In this document: positions 5,225 through 24,350 of the stretch, piece by piece
Layout: every line of letters starts with the position of its first letter
How positions within the stretch are numbered: position 1 is the stretch's first letter
Assembly (NCBI RefSeq): GCF_009363715.1
Contig: NZ_CP045404.1
Location: forward strand, 3,254,001-3,318,000
Origin: Roseovarius sp. THAF9
Lineage (GTDB): Bacteria; Pseudomonadota; Alphaproteobacteria; Rhodobacterales; Rhodobacteraceae
Length of the DNA: 64,000 nt
Direction of reading: 5' to 3'
Translations under genes and position numbers: made by a program
Notes under the pieces: generated by a model
Seen by the model: only the letters and a program-made list of their open reading frames with translations
The model's database searches: none
What the model was told of the DNA's origin: nothing

Positions 5225-6277
5225 TCAGGCGGCCTTCTTGCGGTTCTCTTCCAACCGGGCGTTGATGATATCGGCCGTCTCGTCCGCTTCTTCCATTGGC
5301 TGCCCCATCTGGTCCGCGATCAGTTTGACCAGCAGATCCACCCGCTCAATTTGCTCGGCACCACCGTCGATGGCCCGCGCGGCCGAGGACGGTTTCAGAA
5401 GGCCGTTCGCCGCTTTGGCGTATTTCTCGAAGGGAACCTGATCGTCTTCGTCTGCCCCCAGGTGCGTGACGAGATCGCAGACTTTCTTGTAGATCGATTG
5501 GGATTCCAAAAGATCACCATGCACAGCCTCCTTGATGGGACGGATGCCGTCGCGCTGAACACAGCGGTAATTGCCGGTCAGCAGCATGGCCCATTTGGCG
5601 AAGGGCACGAACAGCGAGTCGAAGAGGCGCAGTTTGACCGGCACGTCCTTTCCGTCCACCCGCACCGCTTCGATCTTTTCCTCCAGCTCGCGCACGATGG
5701 CGGTATGGGCCGGATCCTCGAAAGGCGCGGCCTTGAAGTTGGTGGGCAGTCCGACATGAAGGACATTGGGACCCTCCTCCGGCGGACGGAAGGCTTGCGG
5801 GTCGGGGCTGCACAGCGAGACAAGGCCGGGCTTGAAACCCTCCCACGGCTCGACGTGGTTGAAGGCGGGGCGCAACTCCTCTGCATCCAGCTTCTCGATC
5901 CGCTTCAGGTACGGCAGCGGCGGCATGTTCATGATCGACATGCAAGGACAACCGGACGCTGCGATGCGCTTCATCAACGCGGTTATCTCGGCGTTGCCAT
6001 ATTGCGGCTCGGACATGGCCAGCGCGACCAGATCATACTCTTCGGGCGCCACGTCGGCAGGCGCCTTGGCATCGAGCCGTCCAGGAAGATCCCCCGATTT
6101 GAATGCGCGGTGCTCGTCTTCGTCGCGCAGCTTGATGCGGACTTCGGTTCCTTTTTCGTTGATGGTGTCGGCGGTGGCTTGGCGGCACACAAGCGTCACG
6201 TCCTGCCCTGCCATCAAAAGCTTTGTCCCCAGCAGCGAGCCGTAGGATGCACCCAGAATAAGAATCTTGCGAGCCAT
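5225..6277 (-). CDS. Ketopantoate reductase (PanE/ApbA)-like NAD(P)-dependent oxidoreductase
   Basis: 350-residue protein starting MARKILILGASYGSLLG at 6277 behind AAGGAGAG. The GASYGS loop (9-14) is a variant of the PanE nucleotide-binding GxGxxG. The C-terminal helical domain contains PFAKWAMLLTGN, where the lysine aligns with the catalytic Lys of 2-dehydropantoate 2-reductases. It is longer and more divergent than housekeeping PanE (about 300 aa), so pantothenate synthesis is unlikely. It is monocistronic with its own terminator and divergent from an ScfR-type regulator, which suggests specific control. A PanE paralogue (PanE2) of methylotrophs is an oxalyl-CoA reductase; with an oxalate locus 1.6 kb away that function is a testable possibility, not a conclusion. 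Confidence 0.65.
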   Translation of the reverse strand: MARKILILGASYGSLLGTKLLMAGQDVTLVCRQATADTINEKGTEVRIKLRDEDEHRAFKSGDLPGRLDAKAPADVAPEEYDLVALAMSEPQYGNAEITALMKRIAASGCPCMSIMNMPPLPYLKRIEKLDAEELRPAFNHVEPWEGFKPGLVSLCSPDPQAFRPPEEGPNVLHVGLPTNFKAAPFEDPAHTAIVRELEEKIEAVRVDGKDVPVKLRLFDSLFVPFAKWAMLLTGNYRCVQRDGIRPIKEAVHGDLLESQSIYKKVCDLVTHLGADEDDQVPFEKYAKAANGLLKPSSAARAIDGGAEQIERVDLLVKLIADQMGQPMEEADETADIINARLEENRKKAA

Positions 6278-7882: not shown

Positions 7883-9403
7883 TCAGGCCTGGCCTTCCGC
7901 CGCCTTCTTGCGCTTGCGCATGATGCGTTGCACCACCGGGAACAAGACCAGCGCCAGTGCAAGGCAGATGCAGACCAGCGAGATCGGGCGGGTGATGAAC
8001 GTGGTCGCGTCACCCTGAGCGGAGATCAGCGACTGGCGAAGCGACCGTTCGGCCAAGGGCCCCAGAACGATGGCCAGCACCGCCGGCGCCACCGGATAGT
8101 TCAGCTTGCGCATCAGGTAGCCCACCACGCCGATGATCAGCATGATCCAGGTGTCGAACATCCGGTCGGTCGTGGCGAAGACGCCCAGCACGCAGAGCGT
8201 GAAGATGATCGGCGTCAGCAGGGTGAACGGCATGGCCAGCACCCGGATGAAGACCGGGATCAGCGCGATGTTCAGGATCACCGTCACCGCGTTGGCCACG
8301 TACATCGAGCCGATCAGGCCCCAGACGAAGTCCGGACTTTCGGTGAACAGCAGCGGCCCGGGGCGCAGACCCCAGATGATCATGCCGCCCAGCAGGATCG
8401 CCGTGGTGGGCGAGCCCGGAATGCCCAGCGTGATCATCGGCAGCATCGAGCCTGTCGAGGCCGCGTTGTTGGCCGATTCAGGCGCGGCCACACCGGCCAC
8501 GTTGCCCTTGCCGAAGCTGTCGGGATCCTTCGAGAACGTCTTGCTGAGGCCATAGGACATCAGCGCCGCCGGGGTTGCCCCCGCCGCGGGCAGCGTGCCC
8601 ACGAAGAAGCCGAGGAAAGAGCCGACCCATGTCGAGTTGATGTATTCCCGAATCTGCTTGAAGTTGTTCTTCATCCGCGACATCGAGATCTTGACGTTGT
8701 GCATCTGGACCTTGCCGCTGGTGGATTCCAGCGTCCAGAGCATCTCGCCCACACCGTAGATGCCGATCGCCAGCACCAGGAAGCCGATGCCACGCTGGAA
8801 CTCGACCATGTCGAAGAAGATCAGGCGCGGGCTGCCCGAGATGATGTCGAACCCGACCGCGGCCAGAACAAGGCCCAGAAGGATCGAGAAGATCGTCTTT
8901 GGTATGTCGTCCCCGCCCAGACCGATGAAGGTGGCGAAAGCCAACAGCATCAGCGCGAACTCCTCCTGTGGTCCGAACTTCAGCGCGAAGGCGGCCAGTG
9001 GCGGCGCGAAGAGCGTGAAGAGGATGATCGAGACCGTGCCGCCGATGAACGACGCGATGGCCGCGGCCATCAGGGCCTGGTCGGCCCTGCCGCTCTGGGC
9101 CATTGGCCTGCCGTCGAACACTGTCGCCACGGCCGTCGAGGCCCCGGGAATACCCAAGGTGATCGAACTGATCGCGCCCCCGTACATGGCGCCGTAGTAA
9201 AGTGCGGCAAGGAAGATGATCGCCGTCGTCGGCGGCACCAAGAAGGTGATGGGCAGCAGGATCGCCACCCCGTTGACCGAGCCGAGGCCCGGCATGCAGC
9301 CCACGAACAGCCCCGCAAGGCAGCCCGCGAAAATCATCATCAGGTTCAGGGGCTGAAACGCCTCAAGAAGGCCTGCTGTCAATGATACAAGTATCGTTTC
9401 CAT
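7883..9403 (-). CDS. tctA: Tripartite tricarboxylate transporter, large membrane subunit TctA
   Basis: 506-residue polytopic inner-membrane protein of the TctA (DUF112) family, with about 11-12 hydrophobic segments. The glycine-rich GLFVGCMPGLGSVNG motif near residue 30 and its internal repeat LGFFVGTLPAAGATPAAL are typical. It is the last gene of the minus-strand operon that starts with gntR/oxc, 15 nt after tctB. TTT systems are secondary transporters that rely on a periplasmic binding protein. Placement behind oxalyl-CoA genes makes oxalate or a related small dicarboxylate the likely substrate, although the family is best known for citrate, tartrate and aromatic acids. Confidence 0.92.
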   Translation of the reverse strand: METILVSLTAGLLEAFQPLNLMMIFAGCLAGLFVGCMPGLGSVNGVAILLPITFLVPPTTAIIFLAALYYGAMYGGAISSITLGIPGASTAVATVFDGRPMAQSGRADQALMAAAIASFIGGTVSIILFTLFAPPLAAFALKFGPQEEFALMLLAFATFIGLGGDDIPKTIFSILLGLVLAAVGFDIISGSPRLIFFDMVEFQRGIGFLVLAIGIYGVGEMLWTLESTSGKVQMHNVKISMSRMKNNFKQIREYINSTWVGSFLGFFVGTLPAAGATPAALMSYGLSKTFSKDPDSFGKGNVAGVAAPESANNAASTGSMLPMITLGIPGSPTTAILLGGMIIWGLRPGPLLFTESPDFVWGLIGSMYVANAVTVILNIALIPVFIRVLAMPFTLLTPIIFTLCVLGVFATTDRMFDTWIMLIIGVVGYLMRKLNYPVAPAVLAIVLGPLAERSLRQSLISAQGDATTFITRPISLVCICLALALVLFPVVQRIMRKRKKAAEGQA

Positions 9404-9946: not shown

Positions 9947-10084
9947 TCTCTTTGGCTCCGTATAAATCGTTTGCGATCTTTCGAGGGGGCGTGTCCCTGC
10001 CGGACGAATCTGCCCGCGCCCGGATCGTCAGGCATCCAGGTGCAGGGCCCGGTACATCCGGACCCCGCCGTTTTCAGGACTGTC

Positions 10085-11068
10085 TTACTCGCCGGTAATC
10101 GACGCGGCGCCGACCTTTTCGATCAGCTTCTCATGCGCGACCTTCTGGTTAGCGTGGAACGCGGCGAGGTCTTCGCCCTTCATCATCGTTTCGCAAGTCA
10201 AACCGTCGGACTTGCAGAACGCCTGCCATTCCTCGCTGTCGAACAGCTCCTGGAAAAGGTTGGTGTACCATTCGACCGCTTCCGGATCCATGTCCGGCGG
10301 GCCATTCACGGAGCGCTGCATGTAGTACTCGATCTCCACGCCCAGTTCCTTGGCTGTCGGCACGTCCGGGAAGGCCGGCATGCGTTCGGCGGTGAACTGC
10401 ACCAGCGGCTTGGTGTTGCCCGCGCGGAAGAACTCCATCTGCTCGGCGGGGTTGTTCACCGTGCTGTCGATCTGGTTGCCCACCAGGTTCTTGGCCACCG
10501 TGCCGCCACCCGGGAACGGGATGTAGGTCACATCATAGCCGAACTCGGCTTCCATCATCGCGGTCAGAACGCTGTCTTCCTGCCCCGATCCGGTGCCGCC
10601 GACCTTCCAGTCCTTGCCCGCCTCGGACACCGTCGCGTTGAAGCTGTCGAGATCGGTGATGTCCTCGCGGTCGGTGTTGACCCACAGCAGGAACGTGTCC
10701 ATCGCCATCAGGCCGATCGGCGTGAACTCGGTCACGTCGACGCCCAGGTCCTCCTGGATGATCGGCGTGGTGTAGAAGCTGTTCAGCGTCATCATGACCG
10801 TGTGGTTGTCGCCGGCCTTGTCCTGCAGGTAACGCAGTGCCTCGGCGCCCGAGCCGCCCGGCTTGTTGATCGGAATGAACGGCCGCGGGCTCAGGTCCTT
10901 TTTCTGGATCAGGCCCTGCAGCAGGCGCGCGATCTGGTCAGCGCCACCGCCAGTGCCGGCCATGATGATGAACTCGACCGGTTTGCGCGGCTGCCATTCC
11001 GCCAGCGCCGCCGGCGCCGTCAACGCCAGCGCCGATGCGCTCGCAACGAGTAGTTTAAACGTTTTCAT
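10085..11068 (-). CDS. tctC: Periplasmic solute-binding protein TctC (Bug family)
   Basis: 327 residues starting MKTFKLLVASASALALTAPA at 11068, behind GGGAGGA; the upstream in-frame ATG at 11092 lacks a ribosome site. A Sec signal peptide (cleavage after about ALA, residue 23) precedes a Bug-type two-lobed domain. Family features include VEFIIMAGTGGGADQIARLLQ near the mature N-terminus and the GGTGSGQEDS segment mid-protein. Bug proteins bind carboxylates through two ordered waters; the ligand cannot be read from sequence, but operon context argues for oxalate. It would capture the ligand in the periplasm for TctAB. Confidence 0.9.
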   Translation of the reverse strand: MKTFKLLVASASALALTAPAALAEWQPRKPVEFIIMAGTGGGADQIARLLQGLIQKKDLSPRPFIPINKPGGSGAEALRYLQDKAGDNHTVMMTLNSFYTTPIIQEDLGVDVTEFTPIGLMAMDTFLLWVNTDREDITDLDSFNATVSEAGKDWKVGGTGSGQEDSVLTAMMEAEFGYDVTYIPFPGGGTVAKNLVGNQIDSTVNNPAEQMEFFRAGNTKPLVQFTAERMPAFPDVPTAKELGVEIEYYMQRSVNGPPDMDPEAVEWYTNLFQELFDSEEWQAFCKSDGLTCETMMKGEDLAAFHANQKVAHEKLIEKVGAASITGE

Positions 11069-11188
11069 GGTTATCCTCCCTATGGTCTCCATGTGTGTCA
11101 GGGCTGGTGTGCGCTCTTTCTTGATATGCTTGGCGCCCGCCCCATTCTTGGTACTGCGGTCAGTCTTCGCCTGTCCTCCCTTCTCTCC

Positions 11189-12061
11189 TCAATGAACCAT
11201 GACGACCGGAAAATCCGCCTCGGCGACAACAACTTGCGAGTTGCCACCGAACAGGGATTCCCGTTCGTAACTGTCGTGATAGGCGCCGATGATCAGCATT
11301 CCGGCGCCCGCCGCGCGGGTTTCCGACAGAAGCTGCCGGCCCACGTTGCGTCCCTCCGCCTTGAACAGCCGGATCTCGGACGCGACGCCGCGCAGTTCGA
11401 GATAGCGCTGCAGCTGATCCGCCCCGGGATGTTCGTCCTTGGGACTGTCGCCGGTGTGCAGGATCGTCACCTTCTTGGCACTGGAAATCAGCGGCATCGC
11501 CATGGCCACGGCCCGCGTCGCCTCGAGCGACCCGTTCCAGCCGATGGCCACGTGATCCGCGAAACCCGCGTCCGACACGTCGTTATCGGGGCACATCATC
11601 ACCGGGCGGCCCGAGGAAAACAGCGCCGATTTCAGCGTGTTGACACCGAGGTTCATCTTCTGGTCCGGCTTGGCCACGCAGACGATGTCGCACAGGCGAC
11701 CGTATCTTTGCACCGCGTCGACCTGTTTGCCCTCGTATTCGATGAACCGCGTCGTCGGCTTGTCCATCTCGTGATCGGCAATCTCGAGCCCGAGTTTCTT
11801 GGCTTGCTTCTCGAACTCACCGTAGAGCTGGTCGCGGGTCACGTCGGCATTGGCATGCGCCGCATCCTCGATCTGGCGGCGCAGCATGGTCGGGATCACG
11901 ACGCCGTACGGCATCATGTCCTCGGTTTTCGGATGACAATGCACCACGCGGACCCGGGCGCCGAAGCGCCGCGCCAGGGCGGCGGCGTGGGCAAACACGT
12001 TGTCGCCTTTGCCGTCGCCCCGCACCGGAAGCATGATGCTGTGAATGGAGTCGTAAGCCAT
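11189..12061 (-). CDS. Universal stress protein, tandem-domain UspA type
   Basis: 290-residue protein with two Usp domains (about 1-145 and 150-290). The C-terminal one ends with the nucleotide-binding type signature IIGAYHDSYERESLFGGNSQ. The N-terminal domain begins IHSIMLPVRGDGKGDNVF. It starts 3 nt after the fhs stop, so it is part of the oxalate operon, between the C1 genes and the transporter. Usp genes often accompany TRAP and TTT transporters, where they may modulate transport in response to ATP or AMP. The family is certain; its role here is unknown. Confidence 0.86.
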   Translation of the reverse strand: MAYDSIHSIMLPVRGDGKGDNVFAHAAALARRFGARVRVVHCHPKTEDMMPYGVVIPTMLRRQIEDAAHANADVTRDQLYGEFEKQAKKLGLEIADHEMDKPTTRFIEYEGKQVDAVQRYGRLCDIVCVAKPDQKMNLGVNTLKSALFSSGRPVMMCPDNDVSDAGFADHVAIGWNGSLEATRAVAMAMPLISSAKKVTILHTGDSPKDEHPGADQLQRYLELRGVASEIRLFKAEGRNVGRQLLSETRAAGAGMLIIGAYHDSYERESLFGGNSQVVVAEADFPVVMVH

Positions 12062-12064
12062 GGC

Positions 12065-13741
12065 TTAGAACAATCCTTCGATTTCGCCTTGGTCGTTCAG
12101 GCGGATGGATTCGGACGCGGGTCTGCTGGGCAGGCCCGGCATGGTCATGATCTCGCCGCAGACGACGACGACAAAGCCAGCACCCGCCGACAGGCGCACT
12201 TCGCGCACCGGGACCGAGTGGCCCGTGGGCGCGCCGCGCTGCGTGGGATCGGTCGAGAAGCTGTATTGCGTTTTCGCCATGCACACCGGCAGGTTGCCAT
12301 AGCCCTGCTCTTCCCAGCTCTTCAGCTGGTCGCGCACCTTCTTGTCCGCGATCACCTCGTCGGCGCGGTAGATCTTCTTGGCGATCGTCTCGACCTTCTC
12401 GAACAGGCCCATCTCGTCGGGGTAGATCGGCTTGAAGTCCGCCTCGCCCTTCTCGATCGTCTCGACCACTTTCGTCGCCAGGTCCGCCGAGCCTTCCGAG
12501 CCCAGCTCCCAGTGGCGCGACAGCACCGCCTCGGCGCCGTTCTCGGCCACGAAGTCCTTCACCGCCTGCACCTCGGCATCGGTGTCGGTCACGAAGTGGT
12601 TGATCGCCACCACCACCGGTACACCGAAAGACTTAACATTCTCGATATGCCGGCCCAGGTTCGGGCAGCCCGCCTTCACCGCGTCCACGTTCTCGGCCCC
12701 AAGATCCGCCTTGGCCACGCCGCCGTTCATCTTCATCGCCCGCACCGTGGCGACCAGAACCACCGCCGACGGCGCGATCCCGGCCTTGCGGCACTTGATG
12801 TTCATGAACTTCTCGGCGCCCAGGTCCGCGCCGAAGCCGGCTTCCGTCACCACGTAATCGGCGAGTTTCAGCGCCGTCTTCGTGGCGATCACCGAGTTGC
12901 AGCCATGCGCGATGTTGGCGAACGGGCCGCCATGCACGAAGGCCGGGTTGTTTTCCAGTGTCTGCACCAGGTTGGGCTGCATCGCGTCCTTCAGAAGAAC
13001 GGTCATCGCGCCCTCGGCCTTGATGTCGCGGCAATAGACCGGGCTGCGGTCGCGACGATAGGCCACGATCATCGCGCCCAGCCGCTCCTCGAGGTCCTTG
13101 AGGTCCTTGGCCAGGCACAGGATCGCCATGACCTCCGAGGCCACGGTGATGTCGAAGCCATCCTCGCGGGCAAAGCCGTTGGCCACGCCGCCCAAGCTGG
13201 ACGTGATCTGACGCAGCGAGCGGTCGTTCATGTCCACGACCCGGCGCCAGACGATCCGGCGGGTGTCGATCTCGGCGTCGTTGCCCCAGTAGACGTGGTT
13301 GTCGATCATCGCGCTCAAGAGCGCGTGGGCCGAGGTGATCGCGTGGAAGTCGCCGGTGAAGTGCAGGTTCATGTCCTCCATCGGCACCACCTGCGCATAG
13401 CCGCCGCCCGCGGCGCCGCCCTTCATCCCGAAGTTCGGGCCCAGGGACGCTTCGCGGATGCAGATCATCGCCTTCTTGCCGATGTGGTTGAGACCGTCGC
13501 CCAGCCCTACGGTCGTGGTGGTCTTGCCCTCGCCCGCCGGCGTCGGGTTGATCGCGGTCACCAGGATCAGCTTGCCGTCCTCGTTGCCCTGGACCGAGTT
13601 GATATATTCCTGGCTCACCTTCGCCTTGTCATGCCCGTAAGGCAGCAGATGTTCGCCCGGAATCCCAAGCTTGTCGCCAATCTCCTGGATCGGCTTCTTC
13701 GACGCCGCACGCGCAATCTCGATGTCTGATTTGTGGCTCAT
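12065..13741 (-). CDS. fhs: Formate-tetrahydrofolate ligase
   Basis: 558-residue cytoplasmic enzyme catalysing ATP + formate + THF to 10-formyl-THF. The diagnostic P-loop [17 protein letters not shown] lies near residues 66-82, length matches the family (about 555-560), and similarity is continuous from [18 protein letters not shown] to the C-terminus. It follows the formyltransferase-fold gene by 21 nt and precedes usp by 3 nt. In this operon it would capture formate released from formyl-CoA into the folate pool, for biosynthesis or for oxidation to CO2 with NADPH gain. Confidence 0.95.
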
Positions 13742-13762: not shown

Positions 13763-14680
13763 TCAGCTTGGAAATTCTTCGCCGACCTCAAGGCCGACTT
13801 CGGATGCCCACTGGGCGGCGGGTGTCTTGTCCCCGCCCTCGGGGCGTACTCGTTTCACCAGGATACGTCCGCCGACGCACTGCACCTCGATGCCGTCGTC
13901 GGTGATGGCGCGGACCCGGCCCGATATGCCATCGCCGGAAGCGCGGGCACTGTCGAAAATTCCCAGCTTGGCACCCTTGTAGGTCGTCCATGCGCCGGGG
14001 GCGGGGTTGGTCCCGCGAATGAGATCATAGACCTGTCCCACCGGGCGGTGCCAACAGATTTCCGAGTGCCGCGCGGTGCAGCGGCGCTCGTAGGTGGCCT
14101 CTGCCTCGTCCGGCACGATATGCGGCGGATTGCCCGCGCGGAATAGGTCGCAGACCTCCAGCACGCTGTCCACCGCCGCCGGGTAGATCTTCTTGAAATA
14201 GAGGTCGATCACCGTGTCGTCGGGGCCGATCTCGCATTCCCATTGCATCAGGCTGTCGCCTTCGTCCAACCCGTCCGAAGGGTAGAACCAACTGAAGCCC
14301 GACTTGTCCGAGCCCATGATGATCGGCCAGTTGACCGCGCTCGGGCCGCGATGCAGCGGCAGGAGCGACGGGTGAAAGCAGATCGAGCCGTGCGTGGGCG
14401 TGTCCCGCGCCGCTTCGGGCACGAAGACGTTGACGAAGGCCATGACCATCAGGTCGGCGTTGTAGCCTGCCAGCGTTTCCAGTGCCTCGGCATCGTCGAA
14501 ATTCGCCGGCTGGTGTACGGGCAGGCCCTTCTCCAGCGCGAACTCCTTGATGGGGTCCACCGGCTTGCCGTCCCGGTCAGGCTCGCAATACACGGCCACG
14601 ACCTCGTCGGTTCCGGCTTCGATGATCTTGGCCAGCGCGTCCTTGCCGAAGGCTTGCTGCCCCATGACGATCAATCGCAT
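13763..14680 (-). CDS. Formyltransferase-fold protein resembling the hydrolase half of 10-formyl-THF dehydrogenase
   Basis: 305 residues: a GART/FMT-type formyl-folate catalytic domain (about 1-200) plus an FMT-type C-terminal domain (about 205-300). The active-site stretch FHPSLLPLHRGPSAVNW and the later GLDEGDSLMQ supply the expected His and Asp. The sequence between them (GFSWFYPSDGLD) and PGAWTTYKG in the C-domain match the N-terminal hydrolase half of ALDH1L-type proteins better than methionyl-tRNA formyltransferase or PurN. It could hydrolyse 10-formyl-THF to THF + formate, or transfer formyl between folate and another acceptor. Lying between fhs and frc in an oxalate operon, it should act on C1 units from formyl-CoA. 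The exact reaction is unproven. Confidence 0.75.
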   Translation of the reverse strand: MRLIVMGQQAFGKDALAKIIEAGTDEVVAVYCEPDRDGKPVDPIKEFALEKGLPVHQPANFDDAEALETLAGYNADLMVMAFVNVFVPEAARDTPTHGSICFHPSLLPLHRGPSAVNWPIIMGSDKSGFSWFYPSDGLDEGDSLMQWECEIGPDDTVIDLYFKKIYPAAVDSVLEVCDLFRAGNPPHIVPDEAEATYERRCTARHSEICWHRPVGQVYDLIRGTNPAPGAWTTYKGAKLGIFDSARASGDGISGRVRAITDDGIEVQCVGGRILVKRVRPEGGDKTPAAQWASEVGLEVGEEFPS

Positions 14681-14743: not shown

Positions 14744-16018
14744 CTATTCCGCCGCGGTTTTCTGGGCATCACCCACGGCACCGCTATCCAGCACCGCCTG
14801 CAGCTCGTCGCCGTCATAGCCCAGCACATCGCGCAGGATCTCCACCGTGTGCTCTCCCAGAAGCGGCGAGCGGGTCACGTCCACCGGGCTGTCGCTCAGC
14901 TTGATCGGGCAGCCCACCGACGCATATTTGCCGCGCTTGGGATGATCCACGTCCACGATCGTGCCCGTCGCCCGCAGGCCATCGTCCTCGATCAACTCCT
15001 TGGTCGACAGGATCGGGCCCACCGGGATGTTCAGCGGGTTGCAGATGTCCATCACCTCGAACTTCGTCTTGGTCATGGTCCACTCCTCGATCGCGCCGAA
15101 GATCTCGTTCAGCTTGTCCAGACGCTCGGGCGGCGTGGCATAGCCCTCGGCCGTCTTCCACTCCGGCTTGCCGATCACGTCGCAGATCTGCTCCCACACC
15201 GCGGCCTGGGTGATGAAGTAGGTGTACGCGTTGGGGTCCTCCTCCCAGCCTTTGCACTTCAGGATCCGCCCCGGCTGGCCACCGCCAGAGTCGTTGCCCG
15301 CGCGCGGCGTCGCCTCGCCGAACTCGATGCCCTCGCCATACTGGCTGTATTCCTTCAGGGGCCCCGCCTCCAGCCGCTGCTGGTCGCGCAGCTTGACGCG
15401 GCAGAGGTTCAGCACCCCGTCCTGCATCGGCGCCAGTACCTTCTGGCCACGGCCCGTGCGCTCGCGCTGGAAGAGCGCCGTCATGATGCCGAGCGCGAGA
15501 TGCAGGCCCGTGCCCGAGTCGCCGATCTGCGCGCCGGTCACCAGCGGTGGACCATCGCGGAAACCCGTGGTCGAGGCCGAGCCGCCCGCGCATTGCGCCA
15601 CGTTCTCGTAGACCTTGCAATTCTCGTAATTGCCGGGGCCGAACCCCTTGACCGAGGCCATGATGATCTTTGGATTGATCTCCTGGATCCGCTCCCAACT
15701 GAAGCCCATGCGATCCAGCGCGCCGGGCGCGAAGTTCTCGACCAGCACGTCACATTCCTCGATCAACCGGGTCAGCACCTGCTTGCCGGTCTCGTTCTTC
15801 GAGTTCAGCTCGATCGAACGCTTGTTGTGGTTGAGCATGGTGAAATACAGGCTGTCCGCGCCCGGCACATCCACCAGCTGCTGGCGCGTGGCATCGCCCA
15901 CGCCCGGCCGCTCCACCTTCAGAACATCCGCCCCGAACCACGCCAGAAGCTGCGTGCAGGTCGGTCCAGACTGAACATGCGTGAAGTCCAGAATCTTGAT
16001 GCCGTCCAATGCTTTCAT
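14744..16018 (-). CDS. frc: Formyl-CoA:oxalate CoA-transferase
   Basis: 424-residue class III CoA-transferase that moves CoA from formyl-CoA to oxalate, giving oxalyl-CoA + formate. I start at ATG 16018 ([12 protein letters not shown]) behind GGGAGA rather than the upstream in-frame ATG. The catalytic aspartate is in TGAQIGDSG (D167, equivalent to D169 of the Oxalobacter enzyme), and the mobile glycine loop SGGGQPG is intact. Length matches the family (about 428). It lies 14 nt downstream of oxc, the textbook partner. Known Frc enzymes also accept succinyl-CoA as donor, which is relevant to the sucCD-like genes across the divergent promoter. Confidence 0.95.
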
Positions 16019-16032
16019 TGTCTCTCTCCCGC

Positions 16033-17805
16033 TCAAATCTTCTTGGCCTGGGGATAGCGCGCCTGCGCCACCACCGAGGAGGGGTTGAGGTTGCCGATAT
16101 TGCCGCTTTCCTTGCCCGCTGCGGGGTCGATGGCGGCGTTGATCAGCGTCGGCGTGCCGGAGGCCAGCGCCTCTTCGATGCCCTGGCGCAGTTCGTCGGG
16201 GTTCTTGGCCCAGACGCCCACACCGCCGAAGGCTTCCATCATCATGTCATAGCGCGAGTCCTCGACGAAGACCGTGGTGGCCGGGTCATCCCCGTCGCCC
16301 CAGTTCTCGCCATCCCCGCGATAGATGCCGTTGTTGTTGAAGATCACGATGCAGACCGGCAGGTTGTAGCGGCAGATCGTTTCGATCTCCATGCCGCAGA
16401 ACCCGAAGGCACTGTCGCCCTCGACCGCCAGAACCGGTTTGCCGGTTTCCACGGCGGCGGCCACGGCGGCGCCCATGCCGATGCCCATGACACCCCAGGT
16501 GCCCACGTCGATCCGGTGACGCGGCTTGTGGATGTTCACGATCGAGCGGCACATATCAAGCGTGTTCGCCCCTTCGTTCACGAGGATGGTCTCGGGCCGC
16601 TTGTTGACGGCCTCCTTGATTACGCCGAGCGCGGCGAAATAGTCCATCGGGTCGTTGTTGTTCTGCAGCTTGGTGGCCATCTTCTCCATGTTGGCGGTGG
16701 CCTTGGTATTCACCTGGTCCAGCCACTCTTTCGGCGCCTTGATGCCTTCGTTTTCCATGGCGTCGATCAGGGCCTGCGCGCAGGAGCCGACGTCACCCAC
16801 CAGCGGCGCCGCGATTTCGACGTTGCTGTCCATCTCCTCGGGGTCGATGTCGATCTGGATGAATTTCTTCGATCCCGGCTCACCCCATTGCCCGCCTTTG
16901 CCGTGGCTGAGCAGCCAGTTGATCCGCGCGCCCATCATGATGACTGCGTCGGATTCCTTCAGCACCAGCGACCGCGCCGCAGCGGCGCATTGCGGATGGG
17001 TGTCGGGCAGGATGCCCTTGGCCATCGACATGGGCAGGAACGGCAGGCCGGACTTCTCGACCAGCTCCTTGATCACGTCGTCGGACTGGTCATATGCCGC
17101 GCCCTTGCCGATGACGATCAGCGGGCGTTTGGCCTCTTTCAAAACATTGATCGCGCGGTCGATGGATTCCTTTGACGGGGTCTGGCGCGGTGCGGGGTCG
17201 ATGACCTTCACGAGGCTTTTCTTGCCCTCTTCGGCGTCCATGATCTGGCCCAGCATCGCGCCGGGAATATCCAGGTAGACGCCCCCGGGGCGACCCGAAA
17301 CGGCGCTGCGGATGGCGCGCGCCACGGCGATGCCGATATCCTGTGCATAGGTCAGACGGTAAGCGGCCTTGCAGAACGGACGCGCCATGGCCAGCTGGTC
17401 CATTTCCTCGTAGTCGCCTTGGGCGAGGTCGACGATCTCGCGCTCGGAACTGCCCGAGATCAGGATCATCGGCCAGCAGTTCGTCGTGGCGTTGGCCAGC
17501 GCGGTCACACCATTCAGGAAGCCCGGCGCCGACACGGTCATGCAAACGCCCGGCGTCTTGGTCAGAAACCCGGCGACAGAGGCGGCATAGCCCGCGTGCT
17601 GTTCATGCCGAAAAGAGATCACCCGCATGTTCTGCGCTTGCGCATAGCGGCCCAGGTCAGTGATCGGGATACCCGGGACGTTATAGATCGTCTCGATCCC
17701 GTTCAGCTTCAGCGCGTCGATCAGAAGATGAAACCCGTCGGTCAGCGTTTCCGGCGCCGTCTCGGCCCGTGCGACGAGGTCATCGGTCATCTGGGTCACA
17801 CCCAT
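16033..17805 (-). CDS. oxc: Oxalyl-CoA decarboxylase (ThDP-dependent)
   Basis: 590-residue ThDP enzyme converting oxalyl-CoA to formyl-CoA + CO2. It shows all three ThDP-fold domains. The family N-terminal stretch [13 protein letters not shown] and the catalytic glutamate in [12 protein letters not shown] distinguish it from acetolactate synthase, and the Mg-ThDP motif runs from EGDSAFGF to FNNNG. It starts at ATG 17805 after GGGAGGAAG. Located 56 nt after gntR and 14 nt before frc, it should be the first enzymatic gene of the oxalate operon. With Frc it forms the catabolic cycle that turns oxalate into CO2 and formate. Confidence 0.95.
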
Positions 17806-17861: not shown

Positions 17862-18569
17862 TTAGCTGGCCTTGGCGCCTCCCGCGCCGACAGCCAGTTC
17901 GAAACTGCTCCAGGTGCGATTGACGTGTGTGTGCAACCGCATCGTGTGCTCGCGGACGAGGCGCTCCGACAGATCAGCATCCCGCGCTTCGATCGCCTCT
18001 ATGATTTCCGCATGATCGACGACCGACCGCCGCACGCGGTTGCCCTCGCCCATCGCCCGAACCCGCACCGCGTTCATGTGCAGAAACAGGCCGTCCGCCA
18101 TCTTCCGCAGCAATTTACAGCGCGAGATCTCGAGGATGCGCTGATGAAAGCGGATATTGTCGTCGGAGTATTCCGAGATGCGCGTGTTGGCGATCTCGTC
18201 GTTGTATTTCGCCGCGATGGTGCGCAGGCTGGCAATCTCGCGATCCGTCGCGTGTTCGCAGGCCAGACGCGCCGCCATGCCTTCCAGCGCGGCCCAGGCA
18301 ACGATCATGTCCAGGATGTCCGAAAGGCTCTTGCGCTGCACGAACACGCCTTTGCGCGGCTGAACCTCGACCAGACCATCACGCTCCAGCCGGGCCACGG
18401 CCTCGCGCAAAGGTGTCCGCGAGACGCCCAGCTGCTCGGCCAGATCACGCTCGTCCAGACGCAGATCTGTCGCGCTGTCGTAGATGTTCATATCAGTGAT
18501 CGCTGCCCGAAGCATTTCGTAGACGTGATCCTTCAGCGTGAAATTCGAAGGCACAGGTTTCAGCTTCAT
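17862..18569 (-). CDS. GntR-family regulator (FadR/FCD subfamily), putative oxalate-locus regulator
   Basis: 235 residues from ATG 18569 (MKLKPVPSNF, preceded by GGAGAGGG; the upstream in-frame start has no ribosome site). N-terminal winged HTH: LDERDLAEQLGVSRTPLREAV then RLERDGLVEVQPRKGVFV. The C-terminal helical FCD effector domain (about 90-220) has metal-ligand type residues (FHQRILEIS, later VVDHAEIIEAI). FCD regulators bind small carboxylates or acyl-CoA. It leads the oxc operon. A perfect TGGTATACCA palindrome 44 nt upstream of its start, with near copies before two plus-strand units, suggests autoregulation and control of the divergent arm. Confidence 0.88.
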   Translation of the reverse strand: MKLKPVPSNFTLKDHVYEMLRAAITDMNIYDSATDLRLDERDLAEQLGVSRTPLREAVARLERDGLVEVQPRKGVFVQRKSLSDILDMIVAWAALEGMAARLACEHATDREIASLRTIAAKYNDEIANTRISEYSDDNIRFHQRILEISRCKLLRKMADGLFLHMNAVRVRAMGEGNRVRRSVVDHAEIIEAIEARDADLSERLVREHTMRLHTHVNRTWSSFELAVGAGGAKAS

Positions 18570-18612
18570 GCGCCCTCTCCGATCAGGTGTTGCGCGGCGT
18601 CGTTTGCGACGC

Positions 18613-18622
18613 TGGTATACCA
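18613..18622. promoter_or_regulatory. Putative GntR operator O1 (perfect palindrome TGGTATACCA)
   Basis: A 10-bp perfect palindrome 44 nt upstream of gntR. Form and spacing fit FCD-GntR operators, which are typically short GT/AC palindromes. It overlaps the inferred -10 of the minus-strand promoter. Confidence 0.6.
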
Positions 18623-18828
18623 TACACAGCATACCTTACACGACAAACGATTTTTCAGTTCTGCTCAAAAAATCGCCGGTATCCGGCAAAAATCCAGTCC
18701 AAAATTCTAGGTCAAGATGCTTTTTTTATTGCACTTTTTCACACGAAAAAAAATCTGCCCGAGCGATCAATCAAGGTTATCAAAGGCACGAATCTCGCAG
18801 GTTGCGATACTATGAGTTTATTGGTATC

Positions 18829-18838
18829 TGGTATTCCA
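18829..18838. promoter_or_regulatory. Putative GntR operator O2 (TGGTATTCCA)
   Basis: A 9/10 match to O1, 36 nt before the hydrolase start; a further TGGTAT half-site sits at 18822-18827, 7 nt upstream in direct orientation. The position would let a repressor block the plus-strand transcript of the hydrolase and sucC. Confidence 0.55.
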
Positions 18839-18873
18839 CAAGGTCATCACCATGTGCATGAAAGGACCTGTTT

Positions 18874-19410
18874 TTGCTTATCCGCGCCGACGAATCAGCC
18901 CTCATCGTCATCGACATGCAGGAGCGCCTGGTGCCCGCAATGCAGGCACCGGCCCGCACGATTCGCAATACGAGAACGCTCTGTGCCGGCGCACGCGAAA
19001 TGAACATCCCCATCGTTATGACCGAACAATATCCAAAGGGGCTTGGCAAGACCGTGTCCGAGCTGGAGACGCCGGAGGCCACGGTGCTTCCGAAGATGCA
19101 TTTCTCCTGCATGGAAGACGAAGATTTCGCCGCGCATTTCCGTAGCCTGAATCGCAAACAGGCCGTGATCGCGGGGATGGAGGCGCATATCTGCGTGGTC
19201 CAGACCGCCGCCAGCCTGATCGAGGATGGCTACGAGGTTTTCGTGGTCTCTGACGCCACGGCCTCGCGCACGCTGGAAAGCGAGGCGGCCTGTATCGCTC
19301 GGCTGAGCGCCTGTGGCGCCGGCATCGTCACCACGGAGATGGTCGTGTTCGAATGGCTTGGCAAGGCCGGGACACCGCAATTCAAGAACATGTTGCATCT
19401 CATCAAGTAA
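18874..19410 (+). CDS. Isochorismatase-fold cysteine hydrolase (ISOC1/2-like)
   Basis: 178-residue cysteine hydrolase. It starts at TTG 18874, with AAAGGA 7 nt upstream; no ATG gives the full domain. The catalytic triad is visible: Asp in LIVIDMQE, Lys in VLPKMHF and Cys in EAHICVVQT. TEQYPKGLG and the C-terminal FKNMLHLIK match the ISOC1/2-type branch, whose substrates are mostly unknown. The superfamily includes nicotinamidase, N-carbamoylsarcosine amidase and ureidoacrylate amidase, so hydrolysis of a C-N bond is likely. It begins the divergent arm of the oxalate locus, 27 nt before sucC. Releasing oxalate from an amide such as oxamate is a speculative possibility. Confidence 0.8.
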   Translation: MLIRADESALIVIDMQERLVPAMQAPARTIRNTRTLCAGAREMNIPIVMTEQYPKGLGKTVSELETPEATVLPKMHFSCMEDEDFAAHFRSLNRKQAVIAGMEAHICVVQTAASLIEDGYEVFVVSDATASRTLESEAACIARLSACGAGIVTTEMVVFEWLGKAGTPQFKNMLHLIK

Positions 19411-19437: not shown

Positions 19438-20631
19438 ATGAACATCCATGAATACCAGGCGAAGGCCTTGCTGCGCTCTTACGGGGCGCCTGTATCGGAC
19501 GGGCGTGTCGTTTTGCGCGCGGAAGAGGCGAAGACGGCGGCGGGGGAGCTTGACGGCCCCGTCTGGGTGGTCAAGGCGCAGATCCATGCGGGCGGCCGCG
19601 GCAAGGGCACCTTCAAGGAGGCAGGCGCCGGCGACGCGGGCGGCGTGCGCATCACCAAGTCGGTCTCCGAGGCCGCCGAGGAGGCCAAGAAGATGCTGGG
19701 CCGCACGCTGGTGACCAAGCAGACCGGCGACGCCGGCAAGCAGGTGGGCCGCATCTATATCGAGGAAGGTGCGGCCATCGCCAAGGAATTCTACCTGGCG
19801 CTTCTGGTGGACCGGGTGACCTCCCGCGTCAGCTTCGTCGCCTCCACCGAGGGCGGCATGGACATCGAGGAAGTGGCCGAGAAAACGCCCGAGAAGATCC
19901 TCAGCCTGAGCGTCGATCCCGCCACCGGCTACCAGCCGTTTCATGGCCGCCGCATCGCCTTCATGCTGGAGCTCGAGGGCGCGGCGGTGAAGCAATGCGT
20001 CAAGCTGATGGGCACGCTTTACAACATGTTCCTGGAAAAGGACATGGAGATGCTCGAGATCAACCCGCTCATTCTCACCGAGAGCAACGAGCTGAAGTGC
20101 CTCGACGCCAAGATGGGCTTTGACTCCAACGCGGTCTATCGCCATTCCGACATCGCCGAGCTGCGCGACACCACGGAAGAAGACCCCAAGGAGCTGGAAG
20201 CGTCCAAGTACGACCTCAACTACATCGCGCTGGATGGCGAGATCGGCTGCATGGTCAACGGCGCGGGGCTGGCCATGGCGACGATGGACATCATCAAGCT
20301 TTACGGCGCCGAGCCGGCGAACTTCCTCGACGTGGGCGGGGGTGCCACCAAGGACAAGGTGACCGAGGCGTTCAAGATCATCACCTCCGACCCGCAGGTG
20401 AAGGGCATCCTGGTGAACATCTTCGGCGGCATCATGCGCTGCGACGTGATCGCCGAGGGCGTGGTCGCGGCCGTGAAAGAGGTCGGCCTGCAGGTCCCTC
20501 TCGTGGTCCGGCTCGAGGGCACCAATGTCGAGAAGGGCAAGGAGATCATCAACACCTCCGATGTTGACGTGATCGCCGCCGACGACCTCAAGGACGGCGC
20601 CCAGAAGATCGTGAAAGCCGTCAAAGGCTGA
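19438..20631 (+). CDS. sucC: Succinyl-CoA synthetase (ADP-forming) beta subunit, canonical
   Basis: 397-residue ATP-grasp subunit, with typical length and an intact series of SucC motifs: [12 protein letters not shown] at the start, AGGRGKGTF in the ATP-grasp domain, [16 protein letters not shown] and [15 protein letters not shown] in the C-terminal ligase domain. It starts at ATG 19438 after GGAGGAG. The companion alpha subunit lies at 21226, separated by a lipoprotein gene. It would make succinyl-CoA, or run in reverse in the TCA cycle. Its position in the oxalate divergent arm suggests either the genome's only SCS or a dedicated copy feeding CoA to Frc; the window alone cannot tell. Confidence 0.93.
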
Positions 20632-20633
20632 CG

Positions 20634-21125
20634 ATGGGGCGCTCGGTAAACCTTGGCCTGCTGGCCGCCACGCTCCTGCTCTCCGCTTGCGGGTCCGGCG
20701 GCGACGGCATCTCGCGCTCCGGCACCGACCCGGTCAGCCTCGATCGCGTGATCGTCCTGAACGACAGCATCTGCGGCCCGACCCGCCCCGATTTTGCCGG
20801 GGCCAAGGCGCGCATGGTGGCCGAGGGCCTGACGGTCGAGGAGGGCGGACGCAACTTCTCGCCCACCGAGGCCGTCTCGGCCGCCGTCACCCGCACGCCC
20901 GAGGGCCGGACGTTCTGTGCCGTCAGCGCGCGCTTTCCCGGCAACGTCTACACGCTGGAACAGGCCATGACCGAGCGCTTCGGCGCGCCGCGCATGACCG
21001 ACCGGATCACCCCGCCCGCACGCGTCTACAACCTGGGCGCCAAGGGCAACCTGATCCTGGTGATCCGGGGCACCCCGGGCCGCACCGTGACCGCCTATGA
21101 CCTGGGCTATGCCACGGGCATCTGA
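20634..21125 (+). CDS. Small predicted lipoprotein embedded between sucC and sucD
   Basis: 163 residues with a lipoprotein signal: positively charged MGRS, a hydrophobic stretch, and lipobox LLSAC with Cys21 as the lipidation site. The mature part has no domain I recognise. It contains two further cysteines (SICGP, RTFCAV) that could pair, and regularly spaced beta-type segments. It starts 2 nt after the sucC stop, so it is surely cotranscribed. A cell-envelope product inside a TCA-enzyme operon is odd; similar small genes occur between sucC and sucD in other Rhodobacterales as far as I recall. Function unknown. Confidence 0.75.
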
Positions 21126-21225
21126 GAGGTTCGAGATATCCGCGTGCGGGGGCTGAGCCCCGCGCGCCAAGACCAACATAACCCCGGTCGCCGGGGACAG
21201 AGATCATCAAGGAAGGAGACGCCAC

Positions 21226-22110
<885 letters not shown>

Positions 22111-22248: not shown

Positions 22249-22277
22249 TTGACACGAAGCTTACTCTTGGCATACCA
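22249..22277 (+). promoter_or_regulatory. Putative promoter with GntR operator O3 for the second sucCD-like pair
   Basis: A consensus -35 TTGACA (22249-22254) is followed after 17 nt by a weak -10 around 22272. The third TGGTATACCA-like element, TGGCATACCA (22268-22277, 9/10), overlaps the -10. This would place the second ligase pair under the same GntR regulator as oxc and frc. Confidence 0.55.
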
Positions 22278-22311
22278 AATACCAAGAGCCATCGCCGAGG
22301 GGAGGCCGCGC

Positions 22312-23478
22312 ATGCTGCTTGCAGAATACCAGTCCAAGGAATTGCTGGCCCAGTACGGCGTGTCCGTACCGCCGGGCAAGATGGCCCGCACGCCCGACGA
22401 GGCCGAAGCCGCCTGCGCCAACATTCCGGCGCGCAAGTTCGTGGTGAAGGCGCAGATCACGTCGGGCGCGCGCGGTCTTGCCGGCGGCATCAAGTTCGCC
22501 GCCACCGCCTCTGCGGTAAAGGACGAGGCTGCCAGGCTTCTGGGAAAGCAACTGGTCACGAACCAGACCGGGGTCACCGGGGAAACGGTGCATGCCGTCT
22601 ATGTCGAAGCCGACGTCAAGCATGACGCCCAGTATTACATTGCCTTCGCGCTCGATCCCGACACTGGCGCGCCACTGCTCGTTGCCTCCCCCGATGGTGG
22701 GGTGGAGTTCGAGCAGAAGGCGCAGATGAATGCCAGCGAAGTCGCCAAGCACAGCCTGACCGGCAGCCCTGACGCGGATCGCGCCGGTCTGACCGAGTTT
22801 CTGTCCGGCCTCGGGATGAAAGACGAGAAGGCAGTCGAACAACTGCTGTCGGCCTGCGAAGCGTTCATCGAGAACGACATGGCCCTGCTGGAGATCAACC
22901 CGTTCGTCCGCACGCCCGACGGCACCTGGATGGCCATCGACGCCAAGGTCGCGCTGGATGCCAGCGCCGCGTTCCGGCACCCGGAGTGGGATTCGATGGT
23001 CTCGGGCGAGGGCCTGCCCGCCGTGGAAACCGCGGCGCAAAAGAGCAACATCAACTTCGTCAAACTGACCGGCAACCTCGGGGTCGTGGTCAACGGCGCG
23101 GGGTTGGGCCTGGCCACGAACGACATGATCATCGATGCGGGCGGAAAGCCCGCGAACTTCATGGATATCCGCACGACCGCCACCAGCATGGACATCGCCC
23201 GCGGTGTCGAATTGCTGCTGCAGGAGCCTTCGGTCACTGCCATCCTGCTGAATGTGCATGGGGGCGGCATGACGGTCTGCGATACCATCGCCGAGGGCGT
23301 CAACTTCGCCTATTCGCGCAACAACGGCACCAAGCCCGTGATCGCACGTCTGGCCGGCCAGAACGCCGAATGGGGCCAGCGCATTCTCGTCGACCGAAAG
23401 GTCCCGGTCGAGATTTGCGGCACCATGTCCGAAGCCGTGAAACGCGCGGTCGAAATCGCATCCAAGGGGGGACGCTGA
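22312..23478 (+). CDS. Diverged succinyl-CoA synthetase-like beta subunit (substrate unknown)
   Basis: 388-residue ATP-grasp acyl-CoA ligase subunit. It starts at ATG 22312 (MLLAEYQSKELLAQYG) behind GGGGAGG; an upstream in-frame start is leaderless. The ATP-grasp part is conserved (KAQITSGARG, LEINPF), but both loops near the organic-acid site differ from the neighbouring SucC: FMDIRTTATS instead of [10 protein letters not shown], and NVHGGGMTVCDTIAEG instead of [15 protein letters not shown]. That pattern suggests another carboxylate. Malate thiokinase MtkA is one known diverged relative, but its loops differ again. It overlaps the alpha subunit by 1 nt (TGATG). Context suggests oxalate, formate or another small acid. 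Confidence 0.8.
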   Translation: MLLAEYQSKELLAQYGVSVPPGKMARTPDEAEAACANIPARKFVVKAQITSGARGLAGGIKFAATASAVKDEAARLLGKQLVTNQTGVTGETVHAVYVEADVKHDAQYYIAFALDPDTGAPLLVASPDGGVEFEQKAQMNASEVAKHSLTGSPDADRAGLTEFLSGLGMKDEKAVEQLLSACEAFIENDMALLEINPFVRTPDGTWMAIDAKVALDASAAFRHPEWDSMVSGEGLPAVETAAQKSNINFVKLTGNLGVVVNGAGLGLATNDMIIDAGGKPANFMDIRTTATSMDIARGVELLLQEPSVTAILLNVHGGGMTVCDTIAEGVNFAYSRNNGTKPVIARLAGQNAEWGQRILVDRKVPVEICGTMSEAVKRAVEIASKGGR

Positions 23479-24350
23479 TGGCCATTCTCGTCGACGAAAA
23501 CACGCGCCTTCTGGTGCAGGGCATGACCGGTCGCGCCGGCACGTTCTATACCGACCAGGCGATGCGTTACGGAACGAACTGCGTTGCGGGCGTACGCCCC
23601 GGGCGTGGCGGCACCTCGCATCTCGGCTTGCCGGTCTTTCACACCTGTGCCGAAGCGGTCAAGGAAACAAAGGCGAATGCCAGCCTTGTCACCGTGCCCG
23701 CCCCCAAAGCCGCCGACGCCATGATCGAGGCGATCGAAGCCGAGATAGAGGTAGTCGTCTGCATCACCGAACGTGTGCCACAACACGACATGCGCAGGGT
23801 CAAGGAGGCGCTCGAAGGGTCGCAAACGGTACTGATCGGCCCGAACAGCCAGGGGATCCTGACGCCCGGACAATGCAAGATCGGGGTGATGCCGACCGTC
23901 GATGCAAAGCCGGGCCAGATCGGCATCGCGTCGCGCTCAGCCTCGCTCACTTCCGAGGTTCTGGCCAGTTGCAGCGCCGCCAATCTGGGCCAGTCCACCA
24001 CCGTCGGTGTCGGAGGTGACGTGCTGCACGGGATCGGCTTTGTCGGCTGCCTGGAGAAGTTCCGCGACGACCCGGATACCAAGGCCGTGGTCCTGATCGG
24101 CGAAATGGGTGGACGCGAAGAGGAACTGGCCGCGGAGTACCTCTCTTCGGTCGATTACGGCAAGCCCGTGGTGGGTCTGGTGGTGGGGCGCCACGCGCCA
24201 GTCGGCCGCCGGATGGGCCACGCCGGCACGTTGTCGGTCTTCGGCAACCTGTCGGCCGATGACAAGGTTTCGCTTCTGCGCGATGCGGGCGTTGTGATTG
24301 CCCGCGATGCAGGAACCGTGGTGGAAACCGTCCAATCCTGCCTGTCCTGA
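23478..24350 (+). CDS. Diverged succinyl-CoA synthetase-like alpha subunit (substrate unknown)
   Basis: 290 residues starting [18 protein letters not shown]. The CoA-binding domain and the phospho-histidine loop [10 protein letters not shown] are intact, so the ADP-forming ligase mechanism should be kept. The GPNCPG segment of the canonical subunit is GPNSQG here: the proline that lies beside the acyl substrate in known structures is glutamine. GEIGGSAEE is GEMGGREEE. It is translationally coupled to the beta subunit and ends the oxalate divergent arm. It resembles SucD and MtkB in fold; the substrate cannot be named from sequence. Confidence 0.8.

Follow-up and report, generated by a model that had tools for sequence, protein, structure and literature searches.

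Where does the CoA thioester come from that oxalate breakdown needs? The pathway is usually drawn as a closed cycle of oxalyl-CoA decarboxylase (Oxc) and the CoA-transferase Frc, which leaves the source of this thioester open, both at the start and after losses. The question is raised by a locus of Roseovarius sp. THAF9 (contig NZ_CP045404.1, positions 3,254,001 to 3,318,000; this stretch of 64,000 nucleotides is termed the window in what follows). The oxalate locus of the window is divergent. Its left arm carries gntR, oxc, frc, fmtL, fhs, and genes for a universal stress protein and a tripartite transporter; its right arm carries an isochorismatase-family gene, an ordinary sucC, a 163-codon open reading frame (ORF) and sucD, followed directly by a second, diverged SucCD-type pair of beta and alpha genes, here called SL. 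We propose that SL is probably an ADP-forming oxalate–CoA ligase of the succinyl-CoA synthetase (SCS) fold, a prediction drawn from sequence and gene context. If this is true, a dedicated ADP-forming ligase supplies the CoA thioester for the Oxc/Frc cycle and gives oxalate breakdown a direct start.

By its domains SL is of the SCS kind (Pfam PF08442, PF02629 and PF00549), and its two genes overlap by one base. The beta gene more likely starts at the ATG at 22312 than at the TTG at 22249 that opens the ORF as drawn, because 13 relatives from the same genus align from a Met there. SL beta falls under both NCBIfam cut-offs for SucC (360.2 against 370, and 318.7 against 375.6) and far under that for MtkA (PRK14046; 302.2 against 604). 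SL alpha narrowly passes one SucD model (NF004230; 340.2 against 336) and lies under another (TIGR01019; 339.5 against 353.2), and one Phyllobacterium relative of SL is narrowly over NF001913 (371.7) and under TIGR01016 (344.2). Database records label three of four SL-type plasmid genes sucC (H1, H3 and H4); should our proposal hold, the ‘succinate–CoA ligase’ annotations of the SL clade would need correction.

The initial annotation had described two SucCD-type pairs in a row, the second keeping the ATP-grasp, CoA-binding and phospho-His parts and changed around the organic-acid pocket (beta GGGATK to RTTATS and FGGIMR to HGGGMT, alpha NCPG to NSQG). Pfam searches and alignments bear out each of these points. 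Against E. coli SucC, SL beta has DIRTTAT in place of the loop DVGGGAT and, with a one-residue insertion, NVHGGGMT in place of NIFGGIVR; we take the GGG and FGGI loops to be those that hold the acid in succinate-bound SCS. In an alignment of 40 beta rows (the window's protein and 39 relatives 40–69% identical to it), no row departs from R287, T288 or H316-G317-G318-G319, so these changes are not random drift. SL alpha has NSQG for NCPG (one row has NSHG) and SRSASLTSE or a near form for SRSGTLTYE, and the phospho-His motif GHAG is kept except for one GHSG. No stops interrupt the 40 beta and 28 SL alpha sequences compared, and all retain the catalytic parts, with identity falling as low as about 40% for beta and 57% for alpha.

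Phylogeny had been set as a check on the pair, and it places SL outside the SucC and MtkA clade. In an unrooted maximum-likelihood tree of 58 beta proteins, whose bootstrap had not fully settled, 34 SL rows split from the 24 rows of SL′ (a sister form), SucC and MtkA with 100/100 support; the 22 SucC and MtkA rows group together, likewise with 100/100. The sister SucCD-like pair, found at loci L148 and L149, has loops RPxAT and YGGGI and lies between SL and SucC in the tree; it adjoins a PanE2-type reductase gene in L149 and not in L148, and both genomes contain Frc and no TIGR03254 match for Oxc. An AlphaFold2 model of SL beta built on the 40-row alignment (mean pLDDT 90.4, pTM 0.63) is closest to SCS beta chains, the nine best of which give TMq 0.82–0.87 at 33–36% identity. 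In a profile search of the class (385 genomes) score alone cannot separate SL from SucC or MtkA below about 443 bits; of the three matches ranking next below the window's own, all translated, two were the sister form and one had ordinary SucC loops.

The genome itself has four SucC-like genes. Besides SL there is a gene for a genuine MtkA at 1.60 Mb (688.7 against the cut-off of 604), and two ordinary SucC genes, one inside the window and the other at 0.29 Mb, encode identical 397-residue proteins. Two other identities for SL were considered and rejected: a duplicate of ordinary sucCD, the true duplicate being the neighbouring sucC/sucD pair, and MtkAB, given the place of SL in the tree, its MtkA score and the genuine MtkA elsewhere.

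The link of SL to oxalate appears in the distribution of genes. Within the window's genus group (60 genomes, its own counted in) SL was found in 14. Oxc is over its cut-off in all 14 of these and in one of the 46 genomes without SL (Fisher 9e-13, with relatedness not corrected). In that one, G037, the absence of SL may be an assembly gap, because the contig stops inside its sucC copy. Twelve of the 14 also have Frc over its cut-off; in the remaining pair, G006 and G008, the oxc contig breaks off where frc would stand. The complete order frc-oxc / gntR / isochorismatase gene-sucC-sucD-SL occurs in five of 13 genus stretches (L034, L035, L041, L042 and L045; sucD is in two pieces in L041), and the other stretches are truncated, vary in the part separating sucD from SL, or have no intact sucC.

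A wider set consists of 178 confirmed stretches with SL, of which the best 80, mostly from Alphaproteobacteria, were retrieved and analysed; they overlap the genus sample (L048, L049 and L051, for example), and the two counts are not independent. On these 80 stretches true oxc was found in 39, frc in 39 and, beside frc, fmtL in 31, and one or more of oxc, an enzyme displacing it, frc, fmtL and fhs were found in 45. (The cluster labelled OXC was a mixture of true Oxc in 39 loci, the displacing enzyme in five, and other enzymes in L116 and L126 and as second genes in L100, L111 and L113; the counts use the split.) Formate dehydrogenase genes are present in 17 further loci that have no core oxalate gene. 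Gene calls give neither kind for 18 of the 80; 16 of these 18 stretches are shorter than 13 kb, and one of the 18, L102, ends in a piece of oxc. Genome-wide, Frc is over its cut-off in 77 of the 80 SL-locus genomes and in five of 86 SL-lacking genomes from the relatives sample. The three misses, L047, L049 and L051, all fall in one of two sets of 40 genomes, which scores 37 of 40 against 40 of 40 for the other; L049 and L051 share their contigs with the G006 and G008 drafts.

SL and the oxalate genes also share a putative operator. The element TTGGCATACCAAATACCAAG, with the core TGGCATACCA at 22268–22277, begins 44 bases before the SL beta start. It had been noted at the outset that this promoter element is like one before gntR/oxc, and the resemblance is real: a copy with three mismatches, of which 0.01 would be expected in the window, lies at 18820–18839, and a second core, TGGTATACCA, stands at the gntR-oxc-frc operon. 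The core pattern TGGYATACCA occurs in the window at 22268 and 18613 only. Since the latter falls inside the gntR ORF as drawn, gntR probably starts at an inner ATG near 18569. The pattern was picked after viewing the window, and its raw count in the genome (six strand hits) equals that of a reversed-letter control (six), so that only the positions are telling, not the number. These are four places, three of them at oxalate operons: SL beta, gntR-oxc-frc and a second operon, gntR-frc-tctC, at 1.10 Mb beside formate dehydrogenase genes; the fourth is at 3104898.

In 60 of the 78 loci with enough upstream sequence, TGGYATACCA stands on either strand within 300 bases before SL beta. A slightly looser pattern likewise gives 60 loci, against a mean of 0.045 and a maximum of 1 in 200 mononucleotide shuffles. 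Altogether the 80 loci have 118 TGGYATACCA sites in 1.28 Mb, where equal base frequencies would give about 3.7; most of the sites precede SL or gntR. SL is joined to oxalate genes by genetic linkage and by a common operator, and the protein that presumably binds this operator would control SL and oxc-frc together.

Another part of the context comes from genes that use oxalyl-CoA. Nine of the 80 SL stretches encode a PanE2-type reductase, and in five of them (L098, L114, L115, L122 and L123) its gene is the immediate neighbour of SL. Passages of PMC7486775 describe Methylobacterium PanE2 and its Cupriavidus necator homologue ApbA2 as working between oxalyl-CoA and glyoxylate; the family found here, putatively of this function, is 58–59% identical to genes on Cupriavidus replicons. 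In L126 (Afipia sp. 64-13) SL is followed by genes for glyoxylate carboligase (1162.6 bits against a cut-off of 711.2), hydroxypyruvate isomerase (Hyi) and tartronate-semialdehyde reductase (NCBIfam) and by the PanE2-type gene; gntR, sucDC, oxc and frc come further along the contig, with some 10 kb separating oxc and the PanE2-type gene. Clustering gives L116 the same first genes, but there oxc-frc is carried by a different contig. Two Phyllobacterium plasmids carry an island oxlT / thiamine-diphosphate enzyme-frc-SL / PanE2 type, to which one adds transhydrogenase and gcl. In Rhodobacteraceae SC52 the PanE2-type gene is overlapped by a ligase gene whose best solved matches are Oxalate–CoA ligase 5ie0 (1.7e-123), oxalyl CoA-synthetase 6qjz and Oxalate–CoA ligase 8aff; another oxalate ligase thus accompanies PanE2 where SL does elsewhere.

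The reaction that we propose is modelled on SCS. ATP would be bound by the beta ATP-grasp domain and His248 of alpha phosphorylated; oxalate would be held in the rebuilt beta pocket (Arg287, Thr288 and the HGGG loop), and the oxalyl phosphate formed there would be taken by CoA to give oxalyl-CoA. The product would go to Oxc, and Frc could recycle CoA by exchange. Each formyl-CoA given to tetrahydrofolate (THF), or each oxalyl-CoA reduced to glyoxylate, would mean one thioester lost, which SL would replace. In Rhodobacterales the drain would run via FmtL, a formyltransferase-like protein that may be a formyl-CoA:THF formyltransferase, and in Hyphomicrobiales via the PanE2-type oxalyl-CoA reductase toward glyoxylate. 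One can extend this, tentatively and with the balance of probability against it, to a whole bacterial oxalate route not described before, in which the SucCD-type ligase, Oxc or the displacing thiamine-diphosphate decarboxylase, FmtL and Fhs would lead to 10-formyl-THF or formate with ATP cost and recovery balanced; such a route could run without exchange by Frc, under one TGGYATACCA operator.

Several observations weigh against SL as an oxalate ligase. The first is the near-constant company of Frc. An ordinary sucCD pair stands directly beside SL, and passages of PMC2752808 on Pseudomonas fluorescens indicate that ordinary SCS together with a CoA-transferase can also activate oxalate, via succinyl-CoA. 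Oxc does not need SL: the class sample of 385 contains 20 Oxc genomes, and a match above 443 bits occurs in just one of them, that of the window itself. The operator is missing in 18 of the 78 loci, which include four of the nine PanE2 loci (L115, L116, of which only 135 upstream bases are seen, L123 and L126). At E 1e-70 a PanE2-type match is found in 16 of 51 genomes tested and is absent from that of the window, so it is relatives 40–49% identical to the window's beta that provide the strongest context. Lastly, the roles given to the pocket residues derive from alignment and earlier structural work, not from coordinates.

The main rival makes SL an ADP-forming formate–CoA ligase, whose formyl-CoA would then be used by Frc to activate oxalate, with the same sum. 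We think it unlikely, although the presence of Frc beside SL and the 17 loci with formate dehydrogenase genes speak for it, and PMC8899768, in the passages that concern us, leaves the choice between oxalate and formate activation as the missing step. It agrees less well with the stretches on which SL accompanies PanE2-type and glyoxylate-assimilation genes, where the substrate is oxalyl-CoA, and with the overlap of an AAE3-like oxalate–CoA ligase and a PanE2-type gene in SC52; the added invariant Arg and His would moreover fit a dianion better than formate. Of what had been claimed initially, a small-acid ligase that would let the pathway start without formyl-CoA, the ligase is supported, in the probable oxalate form favoured here, by its own clade and its strong linkage to oxc/frc genomes. 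The other part is weaker: with Frc almost always present, SL does not simply replace the formyl-CoA route, and a plain replacement of Frc is likewise rejected.

It is less probable still that SL activates some other small acid (for example glyoxylate, glycolate or malonate) and that its association with oxalate is incidental. ADP-forming two-gene ligases for sulfoacetate and 3-sulfopropionate do exist, as passages of PMC12890257 relate, and in five of the 80 loci the place of oxc is taken by a thiamine-diphosphate enzyme whose best scores are with models of acetolactate synthase and 2-hydroxyacyl-CoA lyase. That displacing enzyme is nevertheless still beside Frc, and the recurring neighbours of SL are Oxc, Frc and, on plasmids, oxlT.

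We consider it very improbable that SL is a diverged malate– or succinate–CoA ligase, with oxalate activated through succinyl-CoA and a CoA-transferase. The fold is the same, one SucD model is narrowly passed, the plasmid genes bear the name sucC, and SCS and an oxalate CoA-transferase connect oxalyl-CoA and ATP in P. fluorescens (passages of PMC2752808). SL lies outside the SucC and MtkA clade, however, its pocket loops are changed, and the genome already encodes a true MtkA as well as two ordinary SucC proteins, of which one is the neighbour of SL; malate or succinate is the less likely substrate. As given in passages of PMC3720670, neither YfdE nor UctC reacted with succinyl-CoA and oxalate. 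The neighbouring ordinary sucCD may be the SCS partner of the oxalate CoA-transferase, by analogy with P. fluorescens, a role that leaves the changed pocket of SL unexplained. A CoA ester lyase gene, a serine-cycle neighbour, stands beside mtkAB in Aminobacter; the recurring neighbours of SL are others, though no search aimed at CoA ester lyase was made. That SL is a non-catalytic or regulatory relic, as its altered pocket residues might suggest, is scarcely credible with the catalytic parts kept in every beta and alpha sequence aligned.

Among known systems, SL shares with SucCD (E. coli sucC/sucD and the pig and human GTP form) the alpha-beta make-up, the ATP-grasp and CoA-binding domains and the phospho-His loop, and differs in its clade, in the loops (beta GGG to RTT and FGGI to HGGG with the inserted residue, alpha NCPG to NSQG) and in its tie to oxalate genes. 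MtkAB has the same fold and ADP-forming chemistry; unlike SL beta, MtkA has retained the loops GGGAS and FAGI and falls together with SucC in the tree. The oxalate–CoA ligase AAE3/Pcs60 (EC 6.2.1.8), an enzyme of the AMP-forming adenylating fold, makes the product proposed for SL and is not homologous to it. Frc and E. coli YfdE/UctC also make oxalyl-CoA, but they move CoA from another thioester, without ATP (passages of PMC3720670). SauCD/SqwKL (sulfoacetate–CoA) and HpfYZ (3-sulfopropionate–CoA) give the precedent for ADP-forming two-gene small-acid ligases (PMC12890257, in part); they differ in substrate and context, a separation made by description and not by sequence.

A literature search, in which subscription journals were thinly covered, returned no ADP-forming oxalate–CoA ligase by title or abstract among the matches listed, which deal with oxalyl-CoA synthetases of the AAE3 type, with Oxc and Frc, or with unrelated subjects; within the same coverage, the sole match pairing ‘oxalyl-CoA’ with ‘ADP-forming’ deals with hen ceca. 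Passages of PMC2752808 describe the P. fluorescens CoA-transferase as passing CoA between oxalyl-CoA and succinate, linked with ordinary SCS. In engineered E. coli with oxlT/oxdC/frc, yeast oxalyl-CoA synthetase had to be added for oxalate use, according to passages of PMC8899768; SL, if the proposal is right, would be an alternative to it.

The features of the locus are collected in Table 1.

Table 1. Positions of genes and putative operator sites in the window
Feature	Position	Strand	Basis
tctA-like gene	7883–9403		
tctC-type tripartite tricarboxylate transporter binding protein	10085..11092	-	PF03401
Universal stress protein, recurring operon member	11189..12061	-	PF00582
fhs, presumed formate–tetrahydrofolate ligase	12065..13741	-	ORF; conserved beside frc/fmtL
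fmtL, formyltransferase-like, proposed formyl-CoA:THF formyltransferase	13763..14680	-	PF00551/PF02911; below Fmt cut-off
frc	14744..16018	-	TIGR03253, 697 bits against cut-off 504.2
oxc, oxalyl-CoA decarboxylase	16033..17790	-	TIGR03254, 956.2 bits against cut-off 739.4
gntR, presumed GntR-family regulator of the oxalate operon	17862..18632 as drawn; likely start near 18569	-	ORF; place conserved in relatives
Operator core TGGTATACCA at the gntR-oxc-frc operon, inside gntR ORF as drawn	18613..18622	.	
Degenerate operator copy (3 mismatches) between gntR and isochorismatase-family gene	18820..18839	-	
Isochorismatase-family cysteine hydrolase, opening gene of the divergent arm	18874..19410	+	PF00857; recurs in relatives
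Second copy of ordinary sucC and sucD	19438..22110 (sucC 19438–20631, sucD 21226–22110)	+	
Operator TTGGCATACCAAATACCAAG	22267..22286	+	
SL beta, 388 aa, ATP-grasp and CoA-ligase domains; proposed oxalate–CoA ligase (ADP-forming) beta	22312..23478	+	PF08442, PF00549; below NCBIfam SucC/MtkA cut-offs; own clade
SL alpha, 290 aa, CoA-binding and phospho-His subunit (GHAG, H248)	23478..24350	+	PF02629, PF00549, PF13607; alignment

Some smaller observations concern related loci. A thiamine-diphosphate enzyme occupies the oxc slot beside frc in L098, L101, L103, L107, L112, L139, L150, L151 and L152 (the last by family profile). It is about 25% identical to Oxc and is nearest to, though below the cut-offs of, the acetolactate synthase and 2-hydroxyacyl-CoA lyase models; possibly it is a second kind of oxalyl-CoA decarboxylase. 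Phyllobacterium and Paracoccus plasmid oxalate islands (L152, L153 and L159) also encode, beside oxlT, a single-chain protein of the acetate–CoA ligase family, a possible further small-acid ligase. In L131, L132 and L133 a gntR-frc operon adjoins formate dehydrogenase and quinone oxidoreductase genes, and G032 and G054 have such an operon in genomes without Oxc or SL.

Within the window, the 163-codon ORF at 20634–21125 has no NCBIfam match, and tblastn finds no counterpart in the 13 same-genus stretches. A distant ketopantoate-reductase-like protein, not of the PanE2 type, is encoded at 5225–6277 and recurs beside the transporter in some loci. Near-identical second copies of several genes lie elsewhere in the genome: at 1.10 Mb those of frc and tctC (99.7% and 98.9% DNA identity over window positions 14769–16018 and 10081–11080), and at 0.29 Mb those of sucC and sucD (98.4% and 95.6% over 19438–20631 and 21207–22106). 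Identities this high point to recent duplication or gene conversion.

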